Below the pieces are notes generated by a model, which ran no database searches, was not told where the DNA came from, and worked only from the letters and a program-made list of their open reading frames with translations. Of a DNA stretch of 64,000 nt, positions 13,059-21,308 are shown in pieces. Source of the DNA: an uncultured Oceanospirillaceae bacterium (GTDB taxonomy: Bacteria; Pseudomonadota; Gammaproteobacteria; Pseudomonadales; Balneatricaceae); contig CAJXNY010000001.1 in NCBI GenBank assembly GCA_913057435.1, positions 124,001 through 188,000 of the forward strand, written 5' to 3'. The translations under genes and the position numbers were made by a program. Numbering within the stretch: the first letter of the stretch is position 1; the number at the start of each line of letters is the position of its first letter.

Positions 13059-13904
13059 TCAGCTTTGACCTCGAAGGAAATACGGCCCCAGCTCAGATGG
13101 TGGCAGACCATATTCTTCCGGGTACTTTACATCGACAAAATACAGCCCCCAGGGCGGCGCTGTAACACCGCCCTCTCGGCGATCACGGGCTTCGAGTACA
13201 GTTTTAGACCAGCCCACCGCTGCGTCGCCACAGCCAACTTTCATTAACACACCGGCAATATTACGAATCATATGATGTAAAAAAGCATTGGCCCGCACAT
13301 CAATAACGATCAGATCACCGGACTGATAAACATTCAGATCCGTAATCGTGCGCACCGGACTTTTTGCCTGACAGGCCACCGCCCGATAGGATGAAAAGTC
13401 ATGTTCTCCTACCAGATGCTGCCCGGCCTGATGCATCGTATCAACATCCAGTTTTTTATGCGTCCAGGTAACGCCGCGCGGCAACACCGCCGGCTTAATC
13501 GGTGCGCTGTAAATCAGATAGCGGTAGCGTCTGGCCTGAGCGGAAAAACGGGCATGGAACGTATCAGGCACCCGAGTCGCCCATTTGATCGCAATATCAT
13601 CGGGCAGGTGCCGGTTAGTTCCCATGACCAGCGCCCGCTCGGGCCGGTCAAACTGACAATCAAAGTGGATAATCTGATAGGTACCGTTAACGCCGGTATC
13701 CGTCCGCCCTGCGCAGATAACAGAGACGGGGTGATTGGCCACGCGAGCCAGACCTTTTTCAACTTCTGTCTGCACACAGCGCACATTACCGTGCTTCTGG
13801 CTTTGCCAGCCGTTGTACGCGGCACCCGCATACTCAACACACAGGGCATAACGATAAGGGGCGACCGCAGTCGCCCCCTGGGGATCTTTCAGTTGCTCGG
13901 ACAT
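13059..13904 (-). CDS. truA: tRNA pseudouridine(38-40) synthase TruA
   Basis: Isomerises uridines 38-40 in the anticodon stem. The catalytic Asp is in 'CAGRTDTGVNG' near residue 65; 'RFSAQARRYRYLIY' and 'NAFLHHMIRNIAGVLM' are the family's RNA-binding and late motifs. The usual histidine directly after 'GV' in the catalytic loop (GVH) is asparagine here. The 281 residues are normal. It lies 35 bp downstream of fimV, the conserved fimV-truA pairing of Pseudomonas-like bacteria. Confidence 0.95.
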   Translation of the reverse strand: MSEQLKDPQGATAVAPYRYALCVEYAGAAYNGWQSQKHGNVRCVQTEVEKGLARVANHPVSVICAGRTDTGVNGTYQIIHFDCQFDRPERALVMGTNRHLPDDIAIKWATRVPDTFHARFSAQARRYRYLIYSAPIKPAVLPRGVTWTHKKLDVDTMHQAGQHLVGEHDFSSYRAVACQAKSPVRTITDLNVYQSGDLIVIDVRANAFLHHMIRNIAGVLMKVGCGDAAVGWSKTVLEARDRREGGVTAPPWGLYFVDVKYPEEYGLPPSELGPYFLRGQS

Positions 13905-13939: not shown

Positions 13940-16900
13940 TCAGGCTGGCATCTCGTTCAATAGTTTATCGGCTTCACTTGCCTGACGGCCGGAACCTTCC
14001 TGCTTCACTTCGTTGAGGATATCACGGGCACCATCCAGATCTTCCATCTCCATATAGGCACGGGCAAGATCAAGCTTGGTTTCAACCTCATCCGCACCAT
14101 CCAGCATACTCATTTCGCCAGATAAATCTGGTTCCTGAAGCGCCGCATCCACCTCTTCCATTTCGATATCAGCATCAATATTGCTCAGCAACAGGTCAAG
14201 CTCATCATCAATCTGAGTTTCCAGATCGGCACCAGTATCACTACTGTCAATGTCGGCAGGCACCTGACCAGCCTCAAGACTGGCCAGATCACTGCCCCCC
14301 TCGTTGGCAATATCCTGTTCTAACGATGCCAGCATATCATCCAGATCGCTATCGATCTGGCTATCCATATCAGTCGAATCAAGCTCAACCTCTGCCAGCA
14401 CATCAGCACTGAACTCAGCACCCTCTTCATCATTCAGAATATCTTCCGACTCAGAGGCCAGCTGATCAAGCATATCATCCAGTCCACTGACGCCCTGCGC
14501 CATAACAGGACTGTCATCAAGAGGATCATCCAGCAGAGCATCCAGGTCTCCAAGGTCAGAAGAAATCAGCTCGGCCATCTCGGCCTCAGCTATTTCCCCG
14601 GGACTTGGTGCCGCCACTGTTTCCGAAGTCACGGCACTCTGTGGCTCAGAGGTAATTTCTTCCATTTCACTCATCAGCTGATCAAGCAGCTCATCAGCAT
14701 CATCGACCAGGGCAACCTCTTCTACCAGGTCGGCATCAACGCCGAAAGCGGGTTCCGGCAACCCATCCAGTGCAACAGCCAACTCTTCATCAGCTTCGGG
14801 AGCCGTACCCAGCGCCTGAGCCAGCTCATCTTCTGCTTCGTCGGTGACTTCACCCAACAACGCGTCCAGCTCAGCCGCAGCCTGATCAACAGCATCAACG
14901 TCCAGAGCAGAATCAATAACGTCAGCCTCATCTATCGCGACCTCGGTTTCAGGCTCGAGTCCCGCCAGCAAATCATCCAGCTCCGACTCAAGCCCTTCAA
15001 TCTCATCCGGGACGGCTTCCTGCTCTGCGGGCTCGAGCGCAGCGACCTCGGCACTCTCATCCAGCAGACTATCCAGGTCACTGTCGAACGCATCCAGTGA
15101 CTCAATCTCTGCTGCGTCAGACTCCACATCAGCAACAACGCCTTCGCCAGGCATGCTATCCAGCTCAAAATCGGCGATAGCATCAAGTTCGCCATCCTCG
15201 GCGCCAAGATCAGCTTCATCAGCGGCATTTAACAAGCTATCCAGCGCATCAATCGCTGCAGCATCATCTACCGATGAAACAGCCTCTTGCTCTGCACTTT
15301 CAAGCAAGCTATCCAGATCGGCAAGGCCATCGTCTACCACTGCATCAGCTGGTTCGGCAGAAACTTCTTCAGCTTCATTCAACAGCGCATCAAGATCATC
15401 CAGACCGGCCAGATCATCGTCTGTCACTGCGTCAGCCAGTTCGGCAGAAACCTCTTCAGCGTCATTCAACAGCGCATCAAGATCATCCAGACCGGCCAAA
15501 TCATCGCCTGTCACTGCGCCAGCCGGTTCGGCAGAAACCTCTGCAGCTTCATTCAACAGCGCATCAAGATCATCCAGTTCGGCCAGATCATCGTCTGTCA
15601 CTGCGTCAGCCGATTCGGCAGAAACCTCTTCAGCGTCATTCAACAGCGCATCAAGATCATCCAGGCTAGCAAGGTCATCGTCTGCCACTGCATCAGTCGG
15701 TTCGGCAGAAACCTCTTCAGCTTCATTTAACAGCGCATCAAGGTCATCCGCAGGGGCGGCTGCCGGCTCACCAATGCTGTCGAGAAGACTGTCGATGTCG
15801 TCAAGGTCATCAACGCCAGCCAGCTCATCCGCAGGGGCAGCTGCCGGTTCACCGATGCTATCGAGGAGACTGTCGATGTCGTCAAGGTCATCAACCCCAG
15901 CCAGCTCATCCGCAGGGGCAGCTGCCGGTTCACCGATGCTGTCGAGGAGACTGTCGATATCATCAAGGTCATCAACGCCAGCCAGCTCATCCGCAGGGGT
16001 AGCTGCCGGTTCACCAATGCTGTCGAGGAGACTGTCGATATCATCAAGGTCATCAACCCCAGCCAGCTCATCCGCGGGAGCGGCTGCCGGGTCACCAATG
16101 CTGTCGAGAAGACTATCGATATCATCAAGGTCATCAACGCCAGCCTGCTCATCCGCAGGAGTGGCTGCCGGTTCACCGATGCTGTCAAGAAGGCTGTCGA
16201 TATCATCCATTTCATCAACATCACTCTCATCAGGGATCGGTGATGTATCAACACTGGCAAGAAGACTATCAATATCATCTTCAGGCATATCGTTGCTGGC
16301 ATCGTTATCAGTCAATAGCTGATCAATATCGAGACCATCAAGAACCATACTGTCCTCACCGTCATCGGATGAGGGCATTACACTATTTTCAGCTAGATCT
16401 AATGGGTCATTGAGATCGAGGTCCAGATCGGCGGTACCCAGTAATGAGTCAAGTTCCTCATCCGAGGCAGGAGCAGGTCCTTCACTGTCAATAATGGCAT
16501 CAAGACCGCTGGCCAAAGTACCATCAGCGGGCTGATCAACATCCAGGTCCAGACCTTCAAGGCCATCCAGACCGTCATCAATTCCAAGATCAAACTCTTC
16601 TTCACGAATATCTGCACTCAGCTCGTCAGCACTGGCGGCAAGCGCTGGCGGCATAATTTCGAGCGACGTATCTGCGACGCCATCGATAACCTCGTCATCC
16701 ATGTCATCTGGATCAAGATCCATATCCATATCGAGGTCAAGATCAGACATTTCATCCAGATCTTCCATCGTATCCAGCGCTTCATCTGAAATTTGATGGG
16801 CATCATCGTCATCATCGGCAACTGACAAGTCATCATCCGAAGCAGATAGATCATCAGTATCAAGTTCATCAGGCACCTGAACAAGACCGGCACTACCCGG

Positions 16901-18256
16901 CTCTAGCAGCTCATTGTCATCCGCCGAATCCGATTTTTTTCGTCGTAAAAACGCAAAAACACCACCAGCCAGCGCCAGTAACAGAGCACCCAGAGCTCCT
17001 CCCCAATAAAGAGGGGACGACATCAGGCTTTCCATCAGGCTTTTTTCAGGTGGAGCTGGCGGCGGGATCTGCGTTTTAGCTTCTGCAAGTTCAGCCTGGA
17101 GTGTTGCCAATTGCTGGTCTTTTAACTCAAGCATACGCTGCAAAGCATCGAGCTGTTGCTGCACAGCATCGAGGCGTTCATTCATGTCAGCGTTATCACG
17201 CTCGATACGGTCAACATTTTCCAGCGTTGCAGCCAGCTGCTGCTCAAGCTCCTGATTGCGCTTAGTGAGTTTGTCGAACTCTTCACTACTCTGCGCACTT
17301 TGATCAGAAACAGCACCGTCTGGCTTTTTCTCCGCGTTATTAGCCTGCTCTACTGCGTTTGCAGCTGGAGGTGCAGATACAACTTTGAGCTGATCCGTTT
17401 TTTCAGGTTTTATAACTGGCTTAGCAGGTGCGGCTACCGGAGCAGTAACTCTCTTCGAAACATCAACGGGAGCGGCTTTAGGCGCACTCTTAATCGCAAC
17501 CTGACGGCCCGCTTTCCAGGCCGCAGTCTGGCGCGCAATCTCAGCAATCGCTTCACGGGTTGTCATTACCCCCGCTTCTTGCTGTGTCGGCAAACGCAGC
17601 TTAGCGCCACGTTTCAGCTGGTTGATATTATTGTTATGGAAGGCATTCGGGTTCTTTTTGAGCAACGCGATCATCATCTGCTGAGATGATACTCGTGGCC
17701 CTACCCGATGTTTGATCGCCAACGCCCAGAGCGTATCTCTAGCATCAACCGTAATCGTGCCATTTTGCTCCACATTACCTTTCGCCCCCTGTCCTTTAGC
17801 CCCAGAGCGGTTGCCGGAAGCCAAGGTTGGCTGGGCAGTCTGGCGAGCCGGGGTAGGATCAAAGACCGGAGGGTCCAGCAGTACGGTATACTCTCGCACC
17901 AACCGACCACTGGGCCAGTTAACCTCAACAAGGAAGTTAAGAAAGGGTTCCTGCACCGGTATAGATGAGATCATTCTCAATACACCGGTACCGTTACGGT
18001 TTAGTTTAACCGTAAACTTTATATCGGAGAGGAACTGGCTTTTGCTCAAGCCAGCCAGCGCGAACTCATCAATGTCCGCCATATTTGGCTGAATTTGTAA
18101 AGGAGTTAACCCTCGAGTATCGGTCAGACGAATTTCAGCATTCAGCGGCTCATTGAGCGCCGATTTAATCTGAATGTCACCAATACTCAGAGCATGAGCC
18201 TGGGTCGCACTTAAAATCCCTGCAACCGCTAGGCTAACGGCAGTTTTACGCAGCAT
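13940..18256 (-). CDS. fimV: FimV-type polar hub protein with very large acidic repeat region
   Basis: FimV binds peptidoglycan and organises the cell pole (type IV pili, twitching and chemosensory proteins in Pseudomonas). Order along 1438 residues: signal peptide ending near AHA-L (residue 22); FimV N-terminal domain with 'LVEVNWPSGRLVREYTVLLD' (about 110-130); LysM-like segment starting 'ITVDARDTLWALAIKHR' (about 168-225); lysine/alanine linker; coiled coil 'QELEQQLAATLENVDRIE' (about 330-395); transmembrane segment 'LYWGGALGALLLALAGGVFA' (about 415-440); a strongly acidic Asp/Glu/Leu-rich cytoplasmic region with two tandem arrays; and the C-terminal FimV TPR-like end 'LDLARAYMEMEDLDGARDIL'. 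It is longer than typical Pseudomonas FimV (about 900 residues), with the extra length in the acidic arrays. Confidence 0.93.
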   Translation of the reverse strand: MLRKTAVSLAVAGILSATQAHALSIGDIQIKSALNEPLNAEIRLTDTRGLTPLQIQPNMADIDEFALAGLSKSQFLSDIKFTVKLNRNGTGVLRMISSIPVQEPFLNFLVEVNWPSGRLVREYTVLLDPPVFDPTPARQTAQPTLASGNRSGAKGQGAKGNVEQNGTITVDARDTLWALAIKHRVGPRVSSQQMMIALLKKNPNAFHNNNINQLKRGAKLRLPTQQEAGVMTTREAIAEIARQTAAWKAGRQVAIKSAPKAAPVDVSKRVTAPVAAPAKPVIKPEKTDQLKVVSAPPAANAVEQANNAEKKPDGAVSDQSAQSSEEFDKLTKRNQELEQQLAATLENVDRIERDNADMNERLDAVQQQLDALQRMLELKDQQLATLQAELAEAKTQIPPPAPPEKSLMESLMSSPLYWGGALGALLLALAGGVFAFLRRKKSDSADDNELLEPGSAGLVQVPDELDTDDLSASDDDLSVADDDDDAHQISDEALDTMEDLDEMSDLDLDMDMDLDPDDMDDEVIDGVADTSLEIMPPALAASADELSADIREEEFDLGIDDGLDGLEGLDLDVDQPADGTLASGLDAIIDSEGPAPASDEELDSLLGTADLDLDLNDPLDLAENSVMPSSDDGEDSMVLDGLDIDQLLTDNDASNDMPEDDIDSLLASVDTSPIPDESDVDEMDDIDSLLDSIGEPAATPADEQAGVDDLDDIDSLLDSIGDPAAAPADELAGVDDLDDIDSLLDSIGEPAATPADELAGVDDLDDIDSLLDSIGEPAAAPADELAGVDDLDDIDSLLDSIGEPAAAPADELAGVDDLDDIDSLLDSIGEPAAAPADDLDALLNEAEEVSAEPTDAVADDDLASLDDLDALLNDAEEVSAESADAVTDDDLAELDDLDALLNEAAEVSAEPAGAVTGDDLAGLDDLDALLNDAEEVSAELADAVTDDDLAGLDDLDALLNEAEEVSAEPADAVVDDGLADLDSLLESAEQEAVSSVDDAAAIDALDSLLNAADEADLGAEDGELDAIADFELDSMPGEGVVADVESDAAEIESLDAFDSDLDSLLDESAEVAALEPAEQEAVPDEIEGLESELDDLLAGLEPETEVAIDEADVIDSALDVDAVDQAAAELDALLGEVTDEAEDELAQALGTAPEADEELAVALDGLPEPAFGVDADLVEEVALVDDADELLDQLMSEMEEITSEPQSAVTSETVAAPSPGEIAEAEMAELISSDLGDLDALLDDPLDDSPVMAQGVSGLDDMLDQLASESEDILNDEEGAEFSADVLAEVELDSTDMDSQIDSDLDDMLASLEQDIANEGGSDLASLEAGQVPADIDSSDTGADLETQIDDELDLLLSNIDADIEMEEVDAALQEPDLSGEMSMLDGADEVETKLDLARAYMEMEDLDGARDILNEVKQEGSGRQASEADKLLNEMPA
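15309..15743 (-). repeat. Five 87-bp tandem repeats inside fimV
   Basis: Five head-to-tail units of exactly 87 bp encode a 29-residue period (roughly residues 838-983) of the type DDLDALLNEAEEVSAEPADA followed by VTDDDLAGL. Units differ by a few substitutions. The array is directly adjacent to the 81-bp array and in frame with it. Confidence 0.9.
15744..16229 (-). repeat. Six 81-bp tandem repeats inside fimV
   Basis: Units begin at 15744, 15825, 15906, 15987, 16068 and 16149 on the plus strand, exactly 81 bp apart, and encode a 27-residue period (roughly residues 676-838) of the type DDLDDIDSLLDSIGEPAA followed by APADELAGV. Neighbouring copies are nearly identical in DNA, which points to recent duplication or slippage. 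Confidence 0.92.
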
Positions 18257-18418: not shown

Positions 18419-19441
18419 TTACATATACTGGGCGATCAATATTTCAGCAATCTGCACCGAATTTAACGCCGCACCTTTGCGCACGTTATCGGCCATAACA
18501 AACAGATCAATACCGTTTTCGTTATCAAGATCATCCCGAATACGGCTGACATATACCAGATCACTGCCCGTAGCATCTGTAACGGGCGTTGGGCAACCAC
18601 CATCCGTCTGCTCATCAAGCACTTCAACGCCCGGCGCATCAAGCAGCATATCACGTACTTCATAAGCACTAATCGGGCTACAGGCTTCTACATGCAAGGT
18701 TGCGCTATGCCCAAAAAACACAGGCACCCGCACACAGGTCGGGTTTACCTGGATTTGATCATCCCCTAATATCTTGCGTGTTTCCCAAATCAGGCGCATT
18801 TCTGCAAGGGTATATCCATTATCTTCAAAGCGACCGACCTGGGGAATCAGGTTAAACGCAATCTGTTTACTATACACATCCGTAACTGGTTCACGAGCAT
18901 TCAACAACGCGGCCGTCTGACCTGCCATCTCCTCAACAGCCTTTCGACCTGAACCCGATACGGCCTGGTAAGTAGAGACATTTATTTTACGCAACCCAAG
19001 CTGTCGATAAATCGGTGACAGTGCCACCAGCATCTGAATAGTGCTGCTATCCGGGCTGGCTACGATATTGCGCAAACTATAATCGATCAATGCATCCGGG
19101 TTTACCTCAGGAATAACCATGGGAACATCCCCATCGTTGACAAAGAACCCCGAGTTATCAATCACCACAGCACCCGCATCTGCTGCAACACCTGCATATT
19201 CTGCCGTAACATCAGAGCCTGCAGTAAACAATGCAAGATCGACCTGAGAGAAATCAAACTCTCCCACCAAACCCACTTTATGGGAATGGTCGTTAAAAAA
19301 GATGGTTTTACCTGCAGAGTTATCCCCTGCCAGCGGATAGAGATTTTCAACCGGAAAATCCCGCTTTTCCAGCATCTCAATCATTGCTTCGCCCACCAGA
19401 CCGGTGGCACCCACTACCGCTACATTAAATGTTCTGTTCAT
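18419..19441 (-). CDS. Aspartate-semialdehyde dehydrogenase paralogue (Usg-like), catalytic Cys replaced by Ser
   Basis: A 340-residue protein of the Asd family: NADP-binding 'VAVVGATGLVGEAMIEML' at the start, 'VIPEVNP', 'PTCVRVPVFFGHS' with the His region, and 'MADNVRKGAALNSVQIAEILI' near the end. Where active Asd enzymes have 'NPNCST', this protein has SPDSST (residues about 132-137), so the thioester-forming cysteine is serine (AGC). E. coli Usg, encoded next to truA, is a comparable non-Cys paralogue, and Pseudomonas carries an asd-like gene between asd and fimV. I therefore read this as the usg-type paralogue rather than the biosynthetic enzyme; the true asd is probably elsewhere. Role unknown. 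Confidence 0.8.
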   Translation of the reverse strand: MNRTFNVAVVGATGLVGEAMIEMLEKRDFPVENLYPLAGDNSAGKTIFFNDHSHKVGLVGEFDFSQVDLALFTAGSDVTAEYAGVAADAGAVVIDNSGFFVNDGDVPMVIPEVNPDALIDYSLRNIVASPDSSTIQMLVALSPIYRQLGLRKINVSTYQAVSGSGRKAVEEMAGQTAALLNAREPVTDVYSKQIAFNLIPQVGRFEDNGYTLAEMRLIWETRKILGDDQIQVNPTCVRVPVFFGHSATLHVEACSPISAYEVRDMLLDAPGVEVLDEQTDGGCPTPVTDATGSDLVYVSRIRDDLDNENGIDLFVMADNVRKGAALNSVQIAEILIAQYM

Positions 19442-19462: not shown

Positions 19463-19487
19463 GCCAGCCCGAACAGGTCGGGCTGGC
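19463..19487 (-). terminator. Hairpin downstream of the OFA-family transporter gene
   Basis: A perfect 10-bp stem GCCAGCCCGA / TCGGGCTGGC with a 5-nt loop, between the MFS gene stop (19572) and the Asd-paralogue start (19441). It lacks a good T-run on the minus strand, so it may be a weak or Rho-assisted terminator. Confidence 0.5.
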
Positions 19488-19571: not shown

Positions 19572-21308
19572 TCAGGCACTGGCTGGCGCATGTTCAGGGT
19601 GGGTATTATGTACATGGTGTTTATCCTCCACATGCTTAAGGCCCATATTTGCGAAGAATGCCACCACTAGTAACCCAGCCATCGCATACATGGTGCTGTT
19701 GTACAGACTCGGAGTCGGATCCACAGTACCTTCAGGAACAATGGCCATCAGTTTCCCGATGGTGACTGTTTTGGTCGCAATCAGCGTTTGCAGCTGATCT
19801 ATACCAGCACCGAATGTCTGCAGAAAAACAGCCGGATCAACCTTTACCGCTAGAGTATTCAACGCATCATCCAGCGATTGCTGACGTAAATACGTGATCG
19901 CAAAAGGTCCCAGCACCCCTGCCGTACTCCAGGCCGTCAGCAAACGACCGTGAATACCGCCCACATGCAGTGTGCCAAAGATATCCGCAAGGTACGCCGG
20001 GATGGTCGCAAAACCACCTCCATACATAGTAAAGATAATCATTGTCGCCCCATAGAACAGCATCAACCACATGGTAGAAGGAGCTGTACTCACCTGGTTG
20101 GCGACAAATGGTATCGACAGATATAGCAGTACGCCCAGCAGGAAGAAGCAGTGATAAGTATTCTTACGGCCAATATAATCCGATGTGGAGGCCCAGAAGA
20201 ATCGCCCGACCATATTGAACACACTGATCATCAATACATAAGTCGCCGCAAAGCCCGCATCAACAATGCCCGGCAACGTCGAGCCAAAAATCTCAGTCAT
20301 CATCGTTTTAGCAACCCCGATCACGCCGATACCGGCAGTCACATTGAGGCATAGCACCAGCCATAACCGATAGAACTGAGGGGTTTTCAGCGCCTGATCA
20401 ATGTGCACATGACTATCGCTGATTATTTTTTTCGCTGACTTTACTTCACATGGCGGCGTCCAGCCTTCGGGCACCCAGCCCTCAGGCGGCACTCGGTAAG
20501 CAAAAGCAGCAATTATCATCACAATGAAATACACCACACCCAGTGTCAGGAATACGCTAGCCACACCGGTATCTCCGGTGCCCACTACATACACCCCTTC
20601 CGGGCCTGTGACAGCGGCTTTCGCCATATCAGCTGCGGTTGCAACCACCACCTCGACCTGCTGGCCGGAGACCTCCACAAAGCGTCGTCCCGCTTCGGTA
20701 ATCAGTGTCACATCTGTGACCTTACCCAGGTATTGCGGTGCTTCATAAAACACTGACAGTAGCCAGGTTTTCAGGGGAGCACCGATCATTGCCCCGCCGC
20801 CAAAGCCCATAATCGCCATACCGGTAGCCATTCCCCGCCGGTCTGGGAACCAGCGTATCAGGGTACTCACCGGCGATACATACGCTAAACCAAGCCCACA
20901 ACCACCAATAACTCCGTAACCAAGATAAACCAGCCACAACTGATGCCAGGCGATCCCCAACCCGCCGATCAAAAAACCACCACCCCAGCAGAATGCGGCC
21001 AGCACACCTACCATGCGCGGACCTACCTCTTCCAGCCACTTTCCACCCAGCGCCGCAGCGAGCCCGAGAAACACAATCGCCGTTGAGAAAATCCACACCA
21101 CCGAACTGAGCGTCCAGTCATCAGCGGCACTAGCCACCACACCCATCTGCTTCACCAGCGGCGGATTGAAAATACTCCAGGCATACACTGAGCCTATACA
21201 CAGATGTATTGCAATAGAGGCGGGCGGCACGCGCCAGCGGTTATAGCCGGAATCAGCGACGATTCGATCTTTAAGAAGAAAGGCCAGCGGGCCTTTTGCA
21301 TCAGACAT
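19572..21308 (-). CDS. OFA-family MFS transporter (oxalate/formate antiporter type)
   Basis: An inner-membrane carrier of the major facilitator superfamily. The N-terminal half has the OFA-type start 'HLCIGSVYAWSIFNPPL', the glycine-rich 'GYGVIGGCGLGLAYVSPVSTLIRWFPDRRGMATGMA' region (cut by eye into short motifs: GLGLAYVSPV and WFPDRRGMATG) and 'GRFFWASTSDYIGRKN' between halves. At 578 residues it is longer than usual because of an insert of about 60 residues after the sixth helix (about residues 190-250) and another between the halves. Substrate unknown; the family moves small carboxylates. It is preceded by a sigma-54 promoter and by kinase/activator genes on the same strand, so its expression is probably ligand-induced. 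Confidence 0.85.
   Translation of the reverse strand: MSDAKGPLAFLLKDRIVADSGYNRWRVPPASIAIHLCIGSVYAWSIFNPPLVKQMGVVASAADDWTLSSVVWIFSTAIVFLGLAAALGGKWLEEVGPRMVGVLAAFCWGGGFLIGGLGIAWHQLWLVYLGYGVIGGCGLGLAYVSPVSTLIRWFPDRRGMATGMAIMGFGGGAMIGAPLKTWLLSVFYEAPQYLGKVTDVTLITEAGRRFVEVSGQQVEVVVATAADMAKAAVTGPEGVYVVGTGDTGVASVFLTLGVVYFIVMIIAAFAYRVPPEGWVPEGWTPPCEVKSAKKIISDSHVHIDQALKTPQFYRLWLVLCLNVTAGIGVIGVAKTMMTEIFGSTLPGIVDAGFAATYVLMISVFNMVGRFFWASTSDYIGRKNTYHCFFLLGVLLYLSIPFVANQVSTAPSTMWLMLFYGATMIIFTMYGGGFATIPAYLADIFGTLHVGGIHGRLLTAWSTAGVLGPFAITYLRQQSLDDALNTLAVKVDPAVFLQTFGAGIDQLQTLIATKTVTIGKLMAIVPEGTVDPTPSLYNSTMYAMAGLLVVAFFANMGLKHVEDKHHVHNTHPEHAPASA

Follow-up and report, generated by a model that had tools for sequence, protein, structure and literature searches.

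Usg is an old gene for which we know of no function. Its product in Escherichia coli (b2319, PRK08040) belongs to the aspartate-semialdehyde dehydrogenase (Asd) family and carries C132S, N131D, K216R, an altered phosphate arginine (R101A) and a further altered arginine (R238Q, all in the numbering of the protein described here), and in strain K-12 the gene lies next to truA in the order pdxB-usg-truA-dedA, where the 12 kb examined show no annotated fimV. The Pseudomonas aeruginosa USG-1 homologue (PDB 2hjs) has the same fold, and we take it to be of the PRK05671 type and to adjoin fimV. Among active enzymes, Asd2 of Vibrio cholerae (ASADH II; PDB 2qz9 and 2r00), reportedly the subject of work by Viola in 2008, keeps the Cys, Arg and Lys that the protein described here has replaced. 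Both it and the Asd2 of V. natriegens are encoded alongside another Asd of the same genome. The V. natriegens protein, compared here through its published description rather than its sequence, is active and supports growth without Asd1 (PMC12925634). In Salmonella, usg is co-transcribed in the same pdxB-usg-truA-dedA arrangement and plasmid-borne truA restored the mutants (PMC6358828); the usg phenotype may therefore be polar, and we have set it aside as evidence for Usg function.

The DNA analysed here (the window) is a 64,000-nucleotide stretch from an uncultured Oceanospirillaceae bacterium. It encodes a further member of the Usg type (Table 1), where both Usg-type proteins and redundant active Asd2 enzymes were already known. 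Judged by model scores and predicted fold, the protein is of the Asd2 type by descent. It passes NCBIfam asd_B (385.8 bits, cut-off 324.2) and PRK14874 (420.2 bits, cut-off 223), and its predicted structure (mean pLDDT 94.3) has its nearest solved fold in V. cholerae Asd2 (2r00_C; 0.8 Å rmsd over 338 columns, 54% identical), a protein of the same type and length that is also its best PDB match (phmmer 4.7e-119). The P. aeruginosa USG-1 homologue, compared by fold and overall identity, is more diverged from it (1.5 Å, 39% identity, phmmer 5e-68), and E. coli Usg is 41% identical. Both Usg models are passed as well (PRK08040, 317.8 bits, cut-off 273; PRK05671, 347.6 bits, cut-off 284), but since the copy of a genus mate that retains the cysteine (G002) also passes them, they do not discriminate. 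The Asd models in turn are no test of activity, because Cys-less copies (hereafter dead, as opposed to live, Cys-bearing ones) pass them: G001, G360, G014 and the window protein all exceed the curated Asd equivalog cut-off (TIGR01296, PRK14874). What places the window protein in the Usg type is that it is a Cys-less Asd2-type protein in a genome with a gamma-type asd. Its dead state is not shared by descent with the Usg proteins of E. coli and Pseudomonas: the nearest relative read is the live copy of G002 (74% identical, against 41% for E. coli Usg), so the loss seems local to the genus and membership is one of state rather than of common descent of that state.

Table 1. Features of the locus (positions in the window; residues numbered as in the window protein)
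Feature	Position	Strand	Remarks
Asd2/Usg-type pseudoenzyme gene	18419..19441	-	340 aa, ATG start; assigned by ORF, asd_B and PRK14874 scores and predicted fold
Codon AGC, Ser132	19046..19048	-	Nucleophile Cys in live relatives
Codon GAT, Asp131	19049..19051	-	Asn in live relatives; N131 in 113/113 Cys-bearing copies (order and family sets)
Val101	19139..19141	-	Substrate-phosphate Arg in live relatives; aligns with Arg of the genome's own gamma-type Asd
Codon CGC, Arg216	18794..18796	-	Lys in live relatives; K216 in 113/113 Cys-bearing copies
fimV	13940..18256	-	1438 aa; next gene downstream of the pseudoenzyme gene; synteny anchor
truA	13059..13904	-	Orthologues about 79% identical in both genus mates
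Transporter gene (MFS type by appearance)	19572..21308	-	Upstream of the pseudoenzyme gene
Hairpin	19463..19487		Between transporter gene and pseudoenzyme gene

Unlike E. coli usg, the window gene adjoins fimV, which begins 162 nt downstream of it and is followed by truA. The upstream transporter gene was not detected at any other of the 197 loci read, and a promoter scan returned 2 matches against 1.7 expected. The fimV of the window contains a run of near-identical acidic repeats (ADELAGVDDLDDIDSLLDSIGEPAA...), and the length of FimV differs among genus mates (1438 aa in the window, 1216 in G002 and 1831 in G001).

An earlier note on this DNA had described a serine in place of the catalytic cysteine, SPDSST for NPNCST, in an otherwise intact Asd fold with a counterpart in E. 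coli Usg. The serine and the likeness to Usg hold, the loop reading S129-P-D-S132-S-T where relatives have NPNCST. The description of the rest holds in part: the nucleotide loop GATGLVG, the GHS motif and the predicted fold are intact, but R101V, N131D, K216R and E213A accompany C132S as changes at live-conserved sites. In an alignment of 197 copies from the order and family sets, all 113 Cys-bearing ones share R101, N131, E214, K216, R238 and H245, and the same six sites proved invariant again in 60 of 60 further Cys-bearing copies of the class. The window protein reads V, D, S, E, R, R and H at positions 101, 131, 132, 214, 216, 238 and 245; it thus retains Arg238 (substrate-carboxylate), His245 (acid-base) and Glu214 (amino-binding), and it lacks the nucleophile Cys, the phosphate Arg and the orienting Lys expected of a competent Asd. 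In all, 12 of 87 live-conserved sites are altered, several of them at the active site. Single mutants of Haemophilus influenzae Asd retain <0.01% (C136S), 0.07% (R103L) and 3.3% (K246R) of activity (PMC3276109, Table 1); this Asd is of the gamma type rather than an Asd2, its sites correspond by alignment, and in it the mutant Leu stands where the window protein has Val. From the residues themselves and from the analogy with these mutants, we infer that the window protein is almost certainly dead as an Asd. A decayed binding site for the 2'-phosphate of NADP (AGDN for ASxR) was considered and rejected, since AGEN stands in the live copy of G002 and the stretch varies among other live copies; the AGDNSAG of the window protein, so close to the AGENSAG of G002, gives no sign of decay.

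It is conceivable, if highly improbable, that the protein is still an enzyme by way of Ser132, either with weak Asd activity or through a novel serine-based reaction. The fold, Arg238, His245, Glu214 and the nucleotide loop are kept, and serine occupies the site in 25 of 84 dead copies. However, in H. influenzae Asd the equivalent serine mutant is virtually inactive, as cited above, and here the phosphate Arg and the Lys have changed too. The position also drifts among the 84 Cys-less copies of the 197 read (A 37, S 25, P 17, G 5), with Gly in the sister species G001, and since Ser132 is not preserved as such among dead copies, new serine chemistry is argued against. The other catalytic residues remain in a minority of the 84 (R101 in 22, K216 in 12, R238 in 25 and H245 in 19), and Glu214 in 77. 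Of the 84, 33 retain the nucleotide loop GATGx(V/I/L)G, the window protein included, as against 112 of 113 live copies, which makes cofactor binding unlikely as a general role. Thirty-seven sites persist in 80% or more of the dead genera. Glycine and other small or hydrophobic residues make up many of these sites, which include Asp318, Ala195, Phe242, Gly244, Gly165 and Glu214; Asn197 and Gly323 likewise persist in dead copies.

The second asd for which the earlier note had proposed a search does exist, and the window gene is not the only asd of its genome. Two further Semialdhyde_dhC proteins are encoded there, a canonical gamma-type Asd and ArgC (445.4 bits, cut-off 233.6). The former (C35:52050-53150) has 370 aa and an intact GGNCTVS with its cysteine, scores 636.6 bits against an asd_gamma (TIGR01745) cut-off of 402.9 and lies after leuB, the leuB-asd block of this genome being elsewhere, on contig C35. 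It is about 24% identical to the window protein and of the same fold family, and by family it would catalyse the reaction that the window protein once had. The ORF that follows the canonical asd, near a contig end (L163:11569-12504), has glycine-aspartate repeats with an RTX calcium-binding look.

Among the copies read, loss of the cysteine is confined to genomes with a gamma-type asd. In the order sample, 293 genomes were searched, of which 144 have a match to the window protein at E<=1e-25 and 209 have a gamma-type asd. In the 142 of 144 copies that were read (G153 and G199 left out), Cys-less copies number 56 with gamma-asd and 0 without it, Cys-bearing ones 6 with and 80 without (raw counts, kinship ignored). 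Within the family, 68 of 116 genomes match and all 68 copies were read, 38 being Cys-less and 30 Cys-bearing; gamma-asd was seen for 66 of the 68 and, on another contig, for G001, and the G357 locus is cut by a contig end. The class sample comprises 204 genomes, 167 with a match and 55 with gamma-asd. Here 129 of the 167 loci were read (the 30 best-scoring, 30 low-scoring, the 8 remaining gamma-asd carriers and 61 more; of the 38 others, one is the genome of the window and 37 lack gamma-asd), and 124 were usable, three of the five others being matches to the gamma-type asd itself and two missing the site. All 15 Cys-less copies among the 124 come with gamma-asd, as do 5 of the 109 Cys-bearing ones (kinship again ignored). 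A pairwise-contrast test of the rule on the tree yields 2-3 pairs (p 1), too few to give it power. NPNC stands in every one of 80 named loci, but these were the top similarity matches among at least 577, a choice that favours live copies. Redundancy is not sufficient for loss, since 6 of 62 copies (order) and 5 of 20 (class) in gamma-asd genomes keep the cysteine. All 12 genomes checked that lack gamma-asd have just two Semialdhyde_dhC proteins, the fimV-type enzyme and a much weaker match, presumably ArgC, compared with three in each of 4 gamma-asd genomes. We consider it very likely that redundancy is the permissive cause of the catalytic loss. In the literature searched, titles and abstract openings hold nothing on dependence on gamma-asd, repeated losses or continued selection, subscription journals being thinly covered, and the word usg is absent from the available part of an article on asd evolution (PMC1885841).

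Several copies, all of them in gamma-asd genomes, stand part-way between live and dead. In G446 (L384) the cysteine alone is replaced (NPNGST) and the other sites are kept; in G465 (L351) and G578 (L387) the cysteine is kept and the asparagine lost (NPSCAT), with the lysine lost too in G465; and in G503 (L386, NPNACT) and G506 (L357, NPSSCA) a cysteine stands one place later.

The copy may also go missing altogether. A copy at E<=1e-25 is lacking in 146 of the 209 order-sample genomes with gamma-asd, so any role proposed for it is dispensable in many lineages. Fifteen hand-picked gamma-asd loci without a match, some from outside the order sample, were fetched: 2 hold very diverged copies, in 10 the asd and fimV matches come one after the other <500 nt apart, in 1 a gap of 1.2 kb is left and 2 have no fimV nearby. 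These loci bear on the suggestion in the earlier note that a presumably dead dehydrogenase, conserved next to fimV and truA across long distances, may serve as a partner of the polar hub. It is true that all 84 dead copies are followed by fimV. However, 103 of 113 live copies also adjoin fimV, which makes the neighbourhood uninformative on the dead state; among the relatives read, the neighbour of fimV is more often a live enzyme, and dead copies occur in scattered lineages, which lends no support to the conservation that had been supposed. Moreover, fimV stays at 10 of 13 inspected loci where no copy is recognisable and the gene is missing between asd and fimV, usg of E. coli lies in a setting without an annotated fimV, and titles and abstract openings in the literature searched show no link between Usg and FimV. 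Usg and FimV are named together in one paper found (PMC8780938), and FimV with a semialdehyde dehydrogenase in six, of which one concerns another dehydrogenase (PMC4729953); for the other pairings searched there was none. Retention as a FimV partner is therefore improbable.

How often the catalytic function was lost depends on the tree consulted. A midpoint-rooted asd/leuB/truA tree has 17 maximal groups devoid of live copies, several of them single tips, and 9 contain dead copies; the count becomes 8 if G302 joins its genus mates, and would rise by one with G357, which lies outside the tree. Parsimony on the tree of the protein itself asks for 3 changes only, compared with some 8-9 losses on the former, perhaps because the fast-evolving dead sequences attract one another. 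Five families (10, 6, 11, 5 and 13 copies) have nothing but dead copies among those read, and the dead state can therefore persist.

The genus of the window contains both states. The gene is present in three of its species, the window's own (G000), G001 and G002, and no match was found in G003 (71% complete). G002 keeps its cysteine and all 87 live-conserved sites, the window protein 75 and G001 63. Nine of the window's 12 departures are shared in position with G001, 7 of them to a different residue (overlap p 0.0003). The asd/leuB/truA tree groups G000 with G001, and under a codon model the placing of G000 with G002 is 35 log units worse than that with G001, these being the two arrangements compared. 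Given the shared sites and this grouping, the likeliest course, as read from the sequences, would be a single loss of function followed by separate drift in G000 and G001. The same overlap, together with change at four catalytic positions, led us to reject a one-codon sequencing error. In G002, leuB-asd is still upstream of the Asd2 gene, with a two-ORF insert in opposite orientation between them, and in G000 and G001 leuB-asd is on a separate contig from the Asd2-type gene. The two-ORF cassette of G002 (L161:9013-11165) has no match among the ORFs of the window.

Dead copies are less constrained than live ones, yet far from neutral. For pairs within genera, the median dN/dS is 0.116 in dead copies (49 pairs, 0.045-0.34) and 0.049 in live ones (49 pairs); with one pair per genus, dN/dS is 0.087 (11 genera, 0.05-0.19) against 0.040 (15 genera; Mann-Whitney p 0.0002). 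By codon maximum likelihood, omega is 0.156 on the tips of G000 and G001 and 0.030 elsewhere (equality rejected, p 1.8e-5), and omega = 1 is rejected for these two tips (2dlnL 127). The window tip taken by itself gives an omega of 0.09 without rejecting omega = 1 (p 0.08), its synonymous sites being saturated; given this saturation and an undated loss of the cysteine, constraint from before the loss could contribute to that value, and the case for constraint on the window gene itself leans on its sister G001 and on the family. It is possible that the gene is simply a relic on its way out, which lost catalysis recently, has no function and has not yet been deleted. The many gamma-asd relatives without a recognisable copy and the loci where the gene is missing between asd and fimV fit such a course, as does the window branch taken alone, and the pseudoenzyme evolves faster than its neighbours (genus-mate identity of 61-74%, compared with 89% for asd, 87-89% for leuB and 79% for truA). 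Nevertheless, a relic seems unlikely, for the dead copies of 11 genera are constrained one pair per genus, the dead state has lasted through five wholly dead families among the copies read, and the codon model rejects omega = 1 for the window gene taken together with its dead sister. In addition, neutral rates would give about 8-28 stop-making changes per dead pair, yet all but two of the 84 dead frames measure 321-349 aa, the exceptions being G357, at a contig edge, and G150 (282 aa). The G150 copy (L235) lies away from a contig edge and lacks the N-terminal nucleotide loop.

The selection that still acts on dead copies suggests a non-enzymatic role, as the earlier note had also proposed, and a selected non-catalytic role of the pseudoenzyme is probable. 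We propose the following course of events. The ancestral order would have been leuB - Asd2 - fimV - truA, with Asd2 presumably the cell's sole aspartate-semialdehyde dehydrogenase. A gamma-type asd would then have come between leuB and Asd2, an arrangement seen in many relatives from which its origin may be surmised. Asd2 would thereby have become dispensable for catalysis, and its fates, each met with among the genomes, are to stay live, to lose its catalytic residues or to go missing. In the lineage of the window, the nucleophile Cys, the preceding Asn, the phosphate-binding Arg and the orienting Lys are replaced, and the leuB-asd block now lies elsewhere; the reduction of aspartyl-phosphate is accordingly expected to be lost, with the gamma-type Asd supplying the pathway. 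Purifying selection keeps the protein, as is seen for dead copies generally and for the window gene and its dead sister jointly, though not for the window branch by itself, and the likeliest reason would be a non-catalytic role of the folded protein that was already present in the active enzyme, for example the binding of a partner or of a nucleotide. Taken as a whole, a pseudoenzyme made by redundancy and kept for a non-catalytic role is the explanation that we regard as rather likely. A broader proposal can be made more tentatively, and may well prove wrong: gammaproteobacterial Asd2 may have a second, non-catalytic function that predates the catalytic deaths, and where a gamma-type asd gives redundancy, selection may repeatedly keep the fold and Glu214 while the other catalytic residues drift, the genus of the window showing the process under way.

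The survey gives a rule for the death of Usg, which among the copies read occurs only where a gamma-type asd is present. It also exposes a hazard of annotation, since with dead copies above the curated Asd cut-off a genome may be credited with an enzyme that it lacks, and automatic annotation is likely to call Cys-less copies such as those of the window, G001, G360 and G014 active enzymes. In genomes without the gamma type, by contrast, the fimV-linked gene looks like the only Asd, as in all those checked, and should be essential. Finally, since live and dead copies occur at the same place within one genus, the second role of this protein can be sought by comparing close species.
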